From: a virus
Length of the DNA: 52,415 nucleotides
Direction: 5' to 3' (one strand)
Virus record (IMG/VR): IMGVR_UViG_3300030116_004169
Coordinates: 8,219-60,633 of that record
Position numbers and translations under genes: made by a program. Below the pieces are notes generated by a model. The model saw nothing but the letters and a program-made list of their open reading frames with translations, did no database searches and was not told where the DNA came from. Every line of letters begins with the position of its first letter. Position 1 is the first letter of the stretch. Of the stretch, positions 3,060-6,241 are shown in pieces.

Positions 3060-3476
3060 TTAGAATAATGCGAGGATGTCCTCGGGTTTAGCAATAGTAC
3101 CGATAATTTCATCATCATTTAATATACGATGTTCTCCGTACTTAGTTTTAAATCGAGCTCCAGAATATCGTCCATAGACAACAAACTGTCCCTCTTTACA
3201 CCAAGGTCCTGTTGGAAACTTATCTTTATCTTTGTAACATAGATCACCCATTTTAATAACTAAACCAACTACAGTAGTCATTTGTATGTTATCTCTTGTT
3301 GTATCAGATATGTATACACCACCTTCAGTTTTTTCTTTACCCTCATAAGGCCTTACTAAAAGTCTGTATCCAACTGGTTTTGGTATTATTTTTAGATATT
3401 CCTCAGTTTCTTTTGGTCCCTTCGGAACTTGAACGTCATTTTTTTGATAACGTTTTGGCTTGATTAAAGTCGTCAT
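3060..3476 (-). CDS. GroES-like co-chaperonin (Cpn10 family)
   Basis: 138 aa. Residues about 30-138 match a GroES barrel: entry strand 'PVGYRLLVRPYEGKEKTEGGVYISD' pattern (KTEGGV is the diagnostic start of the mobile loop), then VVGLVIKMG, the GQFVVYGRYSG strand and a C-terminal DDEIIGTI strand. An N-terminal extension of about 30 basic residues is unusual; host GroES is about 95 aa. Phage co-chaperonins such as T4 gp31 replace host GroES so that GroEL can fold a large capsid protein; the location directly before scaffold and capsid fits this. Ribosome site GAGG, 7 bases before ATG. Confidence 0.88.
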   Translation of the reverse strand: MTTLIKPKRYQKNDVQVPKGPKETEEYLKIIPKPVGYRLLVRPYEGKEKTEGGVYISDTTRDNIQMTTVVGLVIKMGDLCYKDKDKFPTGPWCKEGQFVVYGRYSGARFKTKYGEHRILNDDEIIGTIAKPEDILALF

Positions 3477-3660
3477 ATACTTCCTCTCTATTTTGCAGGT
3501 CTGTTAGATCCTGAAGCAACGCTTCTAATGCGTTGAGCTTACCTCTAGCATAGAGTAATTGTTCTTGGTTGTCTATACCATAACAGAGATGTTCTTTAAC
3601 ACTATCTATTTCTTTTCGTATATGCTTTCTTATTATTTGTAATGTATCAATATCATTCAT
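3436..3660 (-). CDS. Small helical protein, unknown
   Basis: 74 aa, mostly charged helix (residues 8-60). Its start overlaps the methyltransferase stop (ATGAATGA) and its end overlaps the GroES gene by 41 bp, so it is translated as part of the same run. A similar small protein occurs in other phages between DNA-modification and head genes as I recall, but the function is unknown. Confidence 0.6.
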   Translation of the reverse strand: MNDIDTLQIIRKHIRKEIDSVKEHLCYGIDNQEQLLYARGKLNALEALLQDLTDLQNREEVYDDFNQAKTLSKK

Positions 3661-4762
3661 TTTCTGCTTCCTTAATTGCTAGTCCCAGCTGTCTTACGAT
3701 TTGTGGTACAATAGAATTACCTAAAGCTTTTATTCGCTTGGCTCTATCTTTGTCCACCCCATAGGATACCCCATTAGGAACTCCACAAACTCTGGATTGA
3801 GTTTGCCACCAAGTTTCTCTGGCTCCTTTTGTTTTTTCTCTATTGCAATCTTCTCCCCCAAAGTTGGTTGTCTCCCTTTCTGAACTGACGGAGGAACTGA
3901 CATCACTGAATCTTTGTAATCCCTGGACCTTGGAGTCGGATAAGTTTGTACTGCGTCCCTCAACTTCACTCCCCATCTCTCGCCTTTCTTGTTCTCTCGA
4001 TAAAAATGACCATTCTTTATTTTCACATCCTTGACTGCTCCCCCCTCTATATCGGCGGCTCTTGGTGTTGGGTACATTTTTATCATCTCTGATAAATAGC
4101 CTGTCTTCCTGTTTGTCGCTGCTCTCGAAGGTCTCATTCCCTTTCGATCTATGTGATCCATTGTTGTTGGTGTCGGAAATAAAACTTGATCTGCTAATGC
4201 TATCGAGCCTCTTTTGATCCTGTGCTGATTGCCTCCTATATTGTTCGGTCCTATCCTTGCATCTTGCGTTGTTGGAGTTTGAAGCCAATATCCAGACTCT
4301 TTTTCTTTGATGCCAAGCACCGATGCCTGAAGCTGGAATAACGAAACATTGGACTTGGAAACCTTCACCTTCCAAGTCGTCTTGCACCTGTCTGAGAACC
4401 ATGCCGTTTTCGATGTTAATAATTCCTTGCACATTTTCTCCAATAACCCATCTTGGTTTGACTTGTTTAATAACATCAAACATTTCATTCCAGAGCCATC
4501 GGTCGTCACTTCTGCCCTTTTGTAATCCTGCTTGACTGAACGCTTGGCAGGGAAAGCCTCCAGAAACGACATCTGCTTGTATTCTTGTGTCATGTAAACT
4601 CCTTACATCATTATATATTGAAATATTAGGCCAATTCTTTTTCAAAACTTGTTTGCAAAAATCATCTTTTTCACAAAAAGCTACAGTTTCAAAAAAACCC
4701 GTTGACTCTAACCCTAGGCTAAAACCACCTATACCTGAAAATAAATCTAATACTTTTAACAC
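3653..4762 (-). CDS. DNA (cytosine-5) methyltransferase
   Basis: 369 aa, SAM-dependent enzyme that methylates C5 of cytosine in DNA. Seen motifs: I (DLFSGIGGFSLGLE, residues 6-19), IV with catalytic Cys72 (GGFPCQAFS), VI (ENV, 109-111), VIII (QRKRVW, about 152-157) and X (GNSIVPQ, near 350). The span about 160-330 is low-complexity (Ser/Arg/Asn-rich, repeated D-T/S-N/K units) and replaces a normal target-recognition domain; this is the part that also encodes a second protein in the +1 frame. Start is GTG at 4762 with AAGGA 6 bases upstream. Probable role: protection from host restriction. Confidence 0.9.
   Translation of the reverse strand: MLKVLDLFSGIGGFSLGLESTGFFETVAFCEKDDFCKQVLKKNWPNISIYNDVRSLHDTRIQADVVSGGFPCQAFSQAGLQKGRSDDRWLWNEMFDVIKQVKPRWVIGENVQGIINIENGMVLRQVQDDLEGEGFQVQCFVIPASGIGAWHQRKRVWILASNSNNARCKDRTEQYRRQSAQDQKRLDSISRSSFISDTNNNGSHRSKGNETFESSDKQEDRLFIRDDKNVPNTKSRRYRGGSSQGCENKEWSFLSREQERREMGSEVEGRSTNLSDSKVQGLQRFSDVSSSVSSERETTNFGGEDCNREKTKGARETWWQTQSRVCGVPNGVSYGVDKDRAKRIKALGNSIVPQIVRQLGLAIKEAENE
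3730..4593 (-). CDS. Overprinted gene inside the cytosine methyltransferase (+1 frame)
   Basis: 287 codons open in the +1 frame relative to the methyltransferase, covering its residues 57-344. It has its own ATG with AAGGAG 5 bases upstream. The product has four repeated TP(T/R)xxD units (residues 106-111, 141-146, 176-181, 220-225), a W-K...F-L-x-x-S segment (74-91) and a closing block with LNPEFVEFLMGYPMGWT (265-281). I recall the same pattern (PTPTAxD repeats and LNPxFVEWLMGFPxGWT) from proteins found beside cytosine methyltransferases in many phages, so this is unlikely to be a shadow. No catalytic motif is recognised. It may act as a specificity or partner subunit, which is inference. 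Confidence 0.72.
   Translation of the reverse strand: MTQEYKQMSFLEAFPAKRSVKQDYKRAEVTTDGSGMKCLMLLNKSNQDGLLEKMCKELLTSKTAWFSDRCKTTWKVKVSKSNVSLFQLQASVLGIKEKESGYWLQTPTTQDARIGPNNIGGNQHRIKRGSIALADQVLFPTPTTMDHIDRKGMRPSRAATNRKTGYLSEMIKMYPTPRAADIEGGAVKDVKIKNGHFYRENKKGERWGVKLRDAVQTYPTPRSRDYKDSVMSVPPSVQKGRQPTLGEKIAIEKKQKEPEKLGGKLNPEFVEFLMGYPMGWTKIEPSE
4599..4604 (-). promoter_or_regulatory. Internal Shine-Dalgarno for the overprinted gene
   Basis: AAGGAG on the minus strand, 5 bases before the internal ATG at 4593. It lies within methyltransferase codons 53-55 (V-R-S), where the codons used (GTA AGG AGT) include AGG, as needed to create the site. Confidence 0.75.
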
Positions 4763-4897: not shown

Positions 4898-5103
4898 TAC
4901 AATCTTAGAGTAAAAGTTCTAAAAAACCATCTCCACAAAGCAGACCTAATTATTGAAACTACTGTAAAAGCTAAAGCTATGCCTAAGCTATCATAAAAGG
5001 AGGGATACAAATCAAATAAAGGAAAAATTAATATTTGTATTACTATAGCCAGTAAAAAACCACTACCTACATCTATAATGCTATGTATAATATCTTTTTT
5101 CAT
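4897..5103 (-). CDS. Two-helix membrane protein, DUF7220-like
   Basis: 68 aa with two hydrophobic helices (about residues 11-30 and 39-55) split by a FPLFDLYPSFYDSLG turn, and a basic aromatic C-terminus (RSALWRWFFRTF). The pattern FPLF...S....A..FT..S..R....R..F matches the small phage family I know as DUF7220. It overlaps the holin stop by 4 bp (ATGA) and probably acts with it at the inner membrane, but the role in lysis is inference. Confidence 0.7.
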   Translation of the reverse strand: MKKDIIHSIIDVGSGFLLAIVIQILIFPLFDLYPSFYDSLGIALAFTVVSIIRSALWRWFFRTFTLRL

Positions 5104-5510
5104 TTTTTCATATTTTCTCTAGCGATACCTTTTGACTTCTCGAAGGATCTCATGGCTCCGAGTCCTAAGAGGCTCATAACTAACGTGACGAGCCCCTCCA
5201 TTTCAAGATTTAGTGGAACGAAATCAGGGTTAAAAAGAACAGCTACATAAGTTACAATCGGCTGAATGAAAAACTGCCATAACAGCCCTAAGCAGCAAAC
5301 CCACATTATTGCAGGACGGGCTCCTGACACAAATATACTAGGATGTTTAGCTTGTTCCTTGTTAATATCTATTTGACCTTTTGCTAATTCGTGAGCATGT
5401 TCCTCTGCCATACTTGCTAGCTTTGAAGCCAGCTCAGCTTTTTTAGCTTTGTTATCAATGTACTTACCAACTAATTTAGTTGCTGGTCCTATCAAACTAA
5501 GTAGCGCCAT
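5100..5510 (-). CDS. Holin (3-TM / gene-transfer-agent type)
   Basis: 136 aa from the ATG at 5510, chosen because AGGAG lies 8 bases upstream; a longer frame reaches 5576 but has no ribosome site. An N-terminal amphipathic/charged helix (about 1-58) is followed by GARPAIMWVCCLGLLWQFFIQP and a last membrane helix (about 103-121) ending GLGAMRSFEKSKG. The signature RP-x-x-x-W-V ... LLGLGAxRSxEKxKG is that of the phage holin family used by gene transfer agents. It should form the membrane lesion that times lysis. No endolysin is found next to it. Confidence 0.85.
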   Translation of the reverse strand: MALLSLIGPATKLVGKYIDNKAKKAELASKLASMAEEHAHELAKGQIDINKEQAKHPSIFVSGARPAIMWVCCLGLLWQFFIQPIVTYVAVLFNPDFVPLNLEMEGLVTLVMSLLGLGAMRSFEKSKGIARENMKK

Positions 5511-5649
5511 TATTTTTCTCCTTTTGAAATCTGTCCCAATGTATTTGACAGTAAAATTTAAAGTTGTGGTATTCAACAGCAGGATTGTTGCAAAAAGAAC
5601 ATTTTCTTTTAGCTATCGCAAACTTCCACGCTCTATCAAATATTCCCAT
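5497..5649 (-). CDS. Small zinc-finger protein (50 aa)
   Basis: Starts at ATG 5649 inside the end of the methyltransferase-like gene and stops 14 bp inside the holin gene. The product holds a CX2C-X13-CX2H array (CSFC ... CQIH), a likely zinc-binding treble-clef or ribbon. The upstream ribosome site (AAGAGA) is weak. The Cys/His spacing and tight fit between genes support it; the function is unknown. Confidence 0.6.
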   Translation of the reverse strand: MGIFDRAWKFAIAKRKCSFCNNPAVEYHNFKFYCQIHWDRFQKEKNNGAT

Positions 5650-6241
5650 CTGTTCTCTTAAAAATTAATTTTCTTTCGCCTTCTCGCACTCTTTGAAACC
5701 CTAATTTTTCTAAAGACCAATCTATTGTTTTAGTATTATAAGTTTTATGATCGTCTAAAATAATTAAGCTTTCATTTTCCATATGTCTCATAAAAAAATT
5801 TACCTCATCATTAACTGCGTTAGTAGTGTGAGGTCCATCTAAATGCACAACAGAATATGTATCCTTCATATATACTTGCCCATCTATACTTATAGGATAA
5901 CCACGTTTCATTGTCTCAAAAAAATAAGTATCTGGAAACTCAAAGAAAGCAAACTCTTTATACTTAACTAAATCATACAAAGTTTCTATTTTCATACTAT
6001 CTGTGTAATCTGCTGTGTATGGAGGTCTGTCATCATAGTGTTTGTAATTTAAGTTACCATACGGATCGACTGCTATGTGTCTATAATATTCTGAACCTTT
6101 AGCAATCACAGCATCCATAATTGTTTGAGAACCTAGTCCTCTGCGTAACCCTATCTCACAAGTTAATACAACAGGAGGTAAATTTAACTTTTGTATTTCC
6201 TCTGTTATAAATTCGTATTCTGTTGAATCACCAGCTATCAC
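5636..6241 (-). CDS. Class I SAM methyltransferase-like protein
   Basis: 201 aa. A Rossmann-like core is visible: motif I (VVLTCEIGLRRGLGS, residues 24-38), an acidic second strand (HIAVDPYG), then SVVHLDGPHTT and NESLIILDDHKTYN, the D-x-x-H/ D-D-H pattern of the methyltransferase-24 / cephalosporin-hydroxylase-like group. GTG start overlaps the upstream stop (GTGA). The substrate is unknown; small molecules or sugars are common in this group. The adjacent genes are portal and holin, which gives no clue. Confidence 0.7.
   Translation of the reverse strand: MIAGDSTEYEFITEEIQKLNLPPVVLTCEIGLRRGLGSQTIMDAVIAKGSEYYRHIAVDPYGNLNYKHYDDRPPYTADYTDSMKIETLYDLVKYKEFAFFEFPDTYFFETMKRGYPISIDGQVYMKDTYSVVHLDGPHTTNAVNDEVNFFMRHMENESLIILDDHKTYNTKTIDWSLEKLGFQRVREGERKLIFKRTDGNI

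Follow-up and report, generated by a model that had tools for sequence, protein, structure and literature searches.

We examined a window of 52,415 nt, i.e. the whole stretch of DNA analysed here, which is part of a 61,543-bp IMG/VR virus record of a marine phage. Its minus strand carries a gene for the large chain of a C5-cytosine DNA methyltransferase, here termed alpha. Alpha matched PF00145 (3.8e-50; end to end, profile 1-323), phrog_363 (6.4e-72) and TIGR00675 (9.5e-43). The initial annotation had proposed an overprinted gene of 287 codons inside the methyltransferase, and this was borne out. The second gene, beta, lies wholly inside the alpha gene in another frame (alpha+1) and matched phrog_1008 (4.9e-31, residues 3-283). 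The four TP(T/R)xxD repeats noticed earlier are present in beta as TPTTQD, TPTTMD, TPRAAD and TPRSRD, together with the LNPEFVEFLMGYPMGWT block. Read in the alpha frame, the DNA of these units gives a D-T/S-N-K low-complexity stretch. The features of the locus are as follows.

3653-4762, minus strand: alpha, large chain of the C5-cytosine methyltransferase with motifs I-VIII and X; 369 aa, GTG start
4280-4762, minus strand: catalytic domain of alpha, residues 1-161; aligns with M.HhaI 12-171 (E 5.7e-20)
3749-4279, minus strand: low-complexity linker of alpha, residues 162-338; the alpha-frame reading of the DNA for the proposed target-recognition domain (TRD) and motif IX of beta
3701-3748, minus strand: motif X of alpha (DRAKRIKALGNSIVPQ); positions 28-43 of the single-chain C-terminal profile
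4599-4604, minus strand: AAGGAG, predicted ribosome-binding site of beta, 5 nt before the ATG (4591-4593)
3730-4593, minus strand: beta, nested in frame alpha+1; proposed to be the chain for target recognition and motif IX; 287 aa, ATG start
4282-4593, minus strand: N-terminal part of beta, residues 1-104; overprints alpha motifs IV-VIII
4174-4278, minus strand: beta cassette 1 (TPTTQDARIGPNNIGG...); cluster 4, in 7 non-redundant loci at differing positions
4069-4173, minus strand: beta cassette 2 (TPTTMDHIDRKGMRPS...); cluster 0, in 19 non-redundant loci
3937-4068, minus strand: beta cassette 3 (TPRAADIEGGAVKDVK...); cluster 5, in 7 non-redundant loci
3811-3936, minus strand: beta cassette 4 (TPRSRDYKDSVMSVPP...); common to locus L004
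3751-3807, minus strand: motif IX of beta (GKLNPEFVEFLMGYPMGWT); positions 3-21 of the single-chain C-terminal profile (E 1.4e-6)

The catalytic domain of alpha contains motifs I (DLFSGIGG), IV (GFPCQ), VI (ENV) and VIII (QRKRVW). The C5-cytosine DNA methyltransferase features I, IV (PCQ), VI (ENV), VIII and X are all found in alpha; a TRD plus motif IX between VIII and X of the same chain is not found in alpha alone. Judged from the sequences, this defining feature appears to be a property of the alpha-beta pair and not of alpha. The match to motif X in the window was weak (E 0.098), and motif X is at the same place in other nested loci. In the DNA, motif IX of beta and motif X of alpha are 2 nt apart, in different frames. 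Invariant residues in the N-terminal part of beta are G35, L39, L51, M54, L59, W74, F86-L88, S91, V92 and G101.

The neighbourhood is a phage structural region with genes for a capsid protein, a chaperonin-10-like protein and a holin-like protein, and no restriction enzyme was recognised among the scanned neighbours of the pair. The chaperonin-10 (GroES)-like protein (3060-3476, minus strand; PF00166, 6.2e-11) adjoins the methyltransferase and the capsid-region genes. A 74-aa ORF (3436-3660, minus strand) shares 41 bases with the start of the chaperonin-like gene and 8 with the end of alpha; a family search with it gave no match. The product of 5100-5576 (minus strand) resembles the three-TM holin of gene-transfer agents (PF11351, 3.8e-15). 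A second, unrelated methyltransferase-like protein (PF13578 Methyltransf_24, 7.5e-7) is encoded at 5636-6241 (minus strand), some 900 bases upstream of alpha.

The open frame of beta was compared with a null model in which the alpha protein was kept, its codons were resampled synonymously and stops in the +1 frame were counted. Reshuffling of the window gave a mean of 6.9 stops in this frame, and none of 300 shuffles was stop-free. At 38 non-redundant loci no +1-frame stop was observed against 6.5-14.6 expected; the third frame had 15-39 stops. An SD-like site precedes beta in 37 of these 38 relatives. Synonymous resampling of alpha predicts 15.4, and 500 resamplings never yielded more than 25 of 38. 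The ribosome-binding site of beta is spelled by different alpha codons in different lineages. In the window, the exact AAGGAGNNNNNATG pattern occurs eight times (0.66 expected), and at least four of the seven other copies mark starts of listed ORFs. These data indicated that the open frame of beta is not a product of chance.

How widely is the arrangement distributed? A search of IMG/VR with beta returned 80 loci, all of which have beta in frame alpha+1. The catalytic part of alpha, a query not aimed at beta cassettes or motif IX, likewise returned 80 loci, each with a beta match in frame +1; the strict motif-IX pattern was present in that frame in 71 of the 75 complete ones. Among the best 80 loci of a profile-based scan of bacterial genomes, alpha was readable in 79. 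All 79 had beta in frame +1, and 75 were strictly nested. They include loci from Bacteroidota, Bacillota, Pseudomonadota, Chloroflexota, Chlorobiota, Nitrospirota, Planctomycetota, Verrucomicrobiota, Myxococcota, Thermodesulfobacteriota and Actinomycetota. Overlaps measured about 500-1,300 nt, and no readable locus had beta without alpha. The initial annotation had expected relatives of beta beside or inside phage C5-methyltransferases. These proved abundant, and conservation of the frame in phages and bacteria reaches far wider than it had said. Its suggestion of a general two-protein modification system gains support from the nested pairs in many phages and bacterial phyla. Locus L265 (CP070831.1, Lokiarchaeota bin108), which has no readable alpha, was left out of the evidence; the C-terminal part of its beta is very like those of marine phages and lies beside a masked stretch, and it looks like phage sequence within an archaeal bin. 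In a deep-sea phage (KT997847.1, L081:1737-2680) alpha is seemingly broken by a frame change after motif I, with motif I in one ORF and IV-X in another, by sequencing error or decay; beta is intact.

No family for beta was found in Pfam, NCBIfam or PADLOC, and searches of PDB sequences with beta, as single sequence and as profile, gave no match. Its nature became evident from actinophage enzymes. IrishSherpFalk gp71 is a single chain in which residues 1-177 resemble alpha (31% identity, 1e-28) and residues 198-357 resemble beta (7e-14); motif X comes after these. Such single-chain homologues combine in one frame alpha-like motifs I-VIII, beta-like TPT units, a motif IX of the beta type and motif X, and relatives of gp71 have up to five PTP-type units in frame. 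From the motif IX and following X stretch of the actinophage enzymes a single-chain C-terminal profile was built. Its IX positions matched beta and its X positions matched alpha in 67 of 67 nested loci, i.e. motif IX is in the small chain and motifs I-VIII plus X are in the large chain. In the split actinophage pairs Catdawg gp6/gp5 and Lilbooboo gp32/gp33 the first gene carries I-VIII and the second TRD-IX-X, and the two genes of each pair overlap in frame +1. PHROG 1008 matched beta and each of the 36 A1 members; in the single-chain and split actinophage enzymes it matched the TRD-IX-X part. The X-containing end of this profile was unmatched by the window beta because motif X is in alpha. 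Because they share these motifs, the nested, split and single-chain forms represent one enzyme in three arrangements. A tree of the catalytic part has a branch (support 100/99) that separates 49 nested rows from the single-chain and split actinophage forms. The tree is compatible with one change of arrangement; being unrooted, it does not give the direction. These homologies indicated that beta is not a second, unrelated protein and that it carries the missing motif IX; very probably it also carries the TRD.

A chimera of alpha (1-161) and beta matched PF00145 over profile positions 1-293 of 324. Modelled alone by AF2, beta had a pLDDT of 42.8, and no PDB structure matched this model. The +1-shifted alpha-beta chimera reached 65.2, with the catalytic part mostly above 75 and a dip at residues 73-81. 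The match of this model to M.HhaI was limited to the catalytic part (163-167 columns), and the cassettes were left unresolved; thus the structure gives no confirmation of the TRD assignment.

Selection was examined in both frames. In the non-overlapping start of alpha the rates at codon positions 1/2/3 were 0.160/0.071/0.344, the pattern of an ordinary gene; the sequence pairs behind these and the following rates are not independent. Where the overlap covers the catalytic motifs of alpha, its position 3, which is position 2 of beta, fell to 0.188. Past motif VIII the fastest site was alpha position 1, equal to beta position 3 (0.363). The frame of the codon-position rates thus switches at the motif VIII boundary. 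dN/dS ratios agreed; they were computed ignoring the other frame and rank the frames rather than measure absolute constraint. Over the cassettes they were 0.02-0.58 for beta vs 0.77-2.4 for alpha. In the upstream overlap alpha had about 0-0.43 and beta mostly 0.5-2.8, the latter because alpha dominates there. The N-terminal part of beta is nevertheless constrained: at four-fold sites of alpha 30.1% differed inside the overlap vs 54.2% outside (difference -0.239, bootstrap 95% -0.275 to -0.193). A motif IX in the alpha frame was considered, as alpha 'RVCGVPNGV' aligns with 'RVMGYPDSY' of M.HhaI. It was rejected because in this block position 3 of the beta codon is fastest (0.368 vs 0.121 and 0.163) and because the single-chain profile matches beta. 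In the unit-repeat stretch the rates point to purifying selection on beta, with alpha nearly free and bound only to stay open. This bears on the initial annotation in two ways. The low-complexity segment which it placed where a TRD would be expected is indeed there, as a nearly unconstrained linker, and constraint is not confined to the methyltransferase frame. Its proposal that one repeated DNA unit serves two proteins is not supported; read in the alpha frame, the repeats are a by-product under little constraint and are not put to a further use. The earlier interpretation as a whole is thus supported as regards the overprinted gene and the two-protein system, but not as regards the dual use of the repeat; a role for beta had not been named.

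Between an N-terminal part of about 104 aa and motif IX, beta has 1-7 units, mostly of about 30-50 aa and usually beginning with (Y/F)PTPxxxD. The window beta has four of about 35-44 aa. Boundaries were set by a regular expression and are approximate. Like units recur across loci in differing combinations and positions, a feature of methyltransferases with modular TRDs. The order of cassette clusters is 4-0-5-15 in the window, 4-5-16-15-17 in locus L004 and 4-0-27 in L006. By analogy with multispecific phage C5-methyltransferases, we infer that the cassettes are target-recognition modules, which would contact the DNA. Since alpha has to extend to motif X, each unit must be open in both frames. 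On balance we favour the view that this is one old, widespread overlap in which the complete part for DNA recognition is overprinted on the catalytic chain's linker, as exchangeable, double-coded cassettes that phages and bacteria swap to change the specificity of methylation.

We consider it highly probable that alpha and beta, two chains read from overlapping frames, associate to form a single C5-cytosine DNA methyltransferase. Alpha would contribute motifs I-VIII, for SAM binding and catalysis, and motif X at its C-terminus. Beta would be translated from an ATG within alpha, served by a ribosome-binding site of its own, to yield the N-terminal part, the target-recognition array of four cassettes and motif IX. 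Upon association beta would furnish in trans the part which an ordinary C5-methyltransferase has between its motifs VIII and X, and both chains would be needed for a complete enzyme. Because the DNA for TRD and motif IX sits between VIII and X, alpha would read through it as a linker in another frame. The enzyme probably methylates phage DNA against host restriction. Such a two-chain enzyme would account for three observations: the stretch of alpha between VIII and X is open but nearly unconstrained, beta occurs together with alpha, and the start of beta is conserved in its own right.

Alternatively, beta might be an independent protein, such as a regulator, an anti-restriction protein or an accessory DNA-binding factor, overprinted on a self-sufficient methyltransferase. 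In favour of this, about 100 N-terminal residues of beta were not seen in the single-chain mycobacteriophage enzymes, and Pfam matched alpha over its full length. However, the C-terminal part of beta is homologous to the in-frame TRD-IX of single-chain enzymes, alpha is nearly unconstrained between VIII and X, its apparent motif IX is a by-product of beta codons, and alpha accompanies beta in every readable locus. We regard an independent beta as improbable. Even less credit is given to a +1 shift of ribosomes from alpha into the beta frame, by which one fused chain would be made and beta would not be translated separately. A shift near alpha codon 161 could join I-VIII to TRD and IX without a stop, yet motif X would require a second shift back; in addition, beta has its own conserved SD and start, and its N-terminal part is constrained upstream of any useful shift site. 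Finally, long alternative ORFs are known to arise by chance in some genomes, but an open frame as a functionless accident of composition or of alpha codons is virtually inconceivable here: G+C is 34%, no synonymous shuffle stayed open, the frame is kept in many phyla, purifying selection in it is strong, and the stop counts and codon-position rates rule out a chance ORF.

The two-chain enzyme has consequences for annotation. As a rule, gene finders retain a single ORF for any stretch of DNA, so that many phage and bacterial records show one half as 'DNA methyltransferase'. Of 59 phage records with a beta match, about half have two features annotated at the locus, and all of these are P. larvae phages. 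In P. larvae phage Redbud the nested ORF is annotated 'g50 internal gene'; for P. larvae phage HB10c2 only alpha is listed. In the E. coli Kagunavirus VIPECOMC04 (L281:918-1883 and 1027-1839) the annotated 'DNA methyltransferase' is the nested beta, and the catalytic alpha ORF is unannotated; a megablast of this nested pair against E. coli genomes gave no match. The earlier statement that such genes are mostly unannotated holds insofar as the three family collections searched contain no beta family; it is weakened by the PHROG 1008 label and by the P. larvae records that list both ORFs. Prediction of specificity from alpha alone would seek a TRD absent from alpha. The pair is among the few long overlaps known across many phyla, and the single-chain, split and nested forms together allow the origin of a nested gene to be studied. 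The literature searched, which included few subscription journals, yielded no account of how widespread the arrangement is or of its selection pattern. New here are the arrangement across at least ten phyla, on one tree branch, the proposed assignment of target recognition to beta, and the 1-7 reshuffled cassettes in beta.

Several known enzymes invite comparison. The multispecific C5-methyltransferases of Bacillus phages (SPbeta/phi3T type) have consecutive target-recognition modules of about 40 aa in one enzyme. Unlike these modules, which are in the frame of the catalytic chain, those of the window would be in a separate, overprinted chain. The actinophage proteins IrishSherpFalk gp71, Catdawg gp6/gp5 and Lilbooboo gp32/gp33 share the motifs, the TPT units and their order with the window pair; they consist, however, of one chain or have motif X in the second of two genes, whereas the window beta is wholly nested. 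The PHROG 1008 label 'DNA methyltransferase' is silent on members as non-catalytic partners overprinted on phrog_363-type alpha chains. In the ShiLan element an actinophage methylase hides an HNH endonuclease in another of its frames (PMC11855218); this parallel was considered and judged a different phenomenon. Like the window enzyme, M.AquI is naturally two-chain, being split in the variable region; its small chain holds motifs IX and X (PMC3404938). In contrast to M.AquI, Catdawg and Lilbooboo, where motif X is in the small or second chain, motif X of the window is in alpha.

The closest counterpart is M.EcoHK31I, an alpha/beta C5-methyltransferase with the target YGGCCR. Lee, Kam and Shaw are said to have reported in 1995 that the gene of its large chain also encodes the small one, in another frame, and both chains were reportedly needed in vitro. 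Motifs I-VIII and X are in its large polypeptide and IX is in the small one; the TRD has been predicted in the large chain (PMC3404938). The window pair likewise has a small chain nested in another frame, with IX in the small and I-VIII plus X in the large chain. It differs in that beta is larger (287 aa) and has four cassettes, and in that selection and the single-chain homologues place the TRD in beta. This raises the question whether the small chain of nested C5-methyltransferases sets the target sequence. Set beside M.EcoHK31I by description rather than by sequence, the window pair is most likely an enzyme of the M.EcoHK31I kind in its anatomy.
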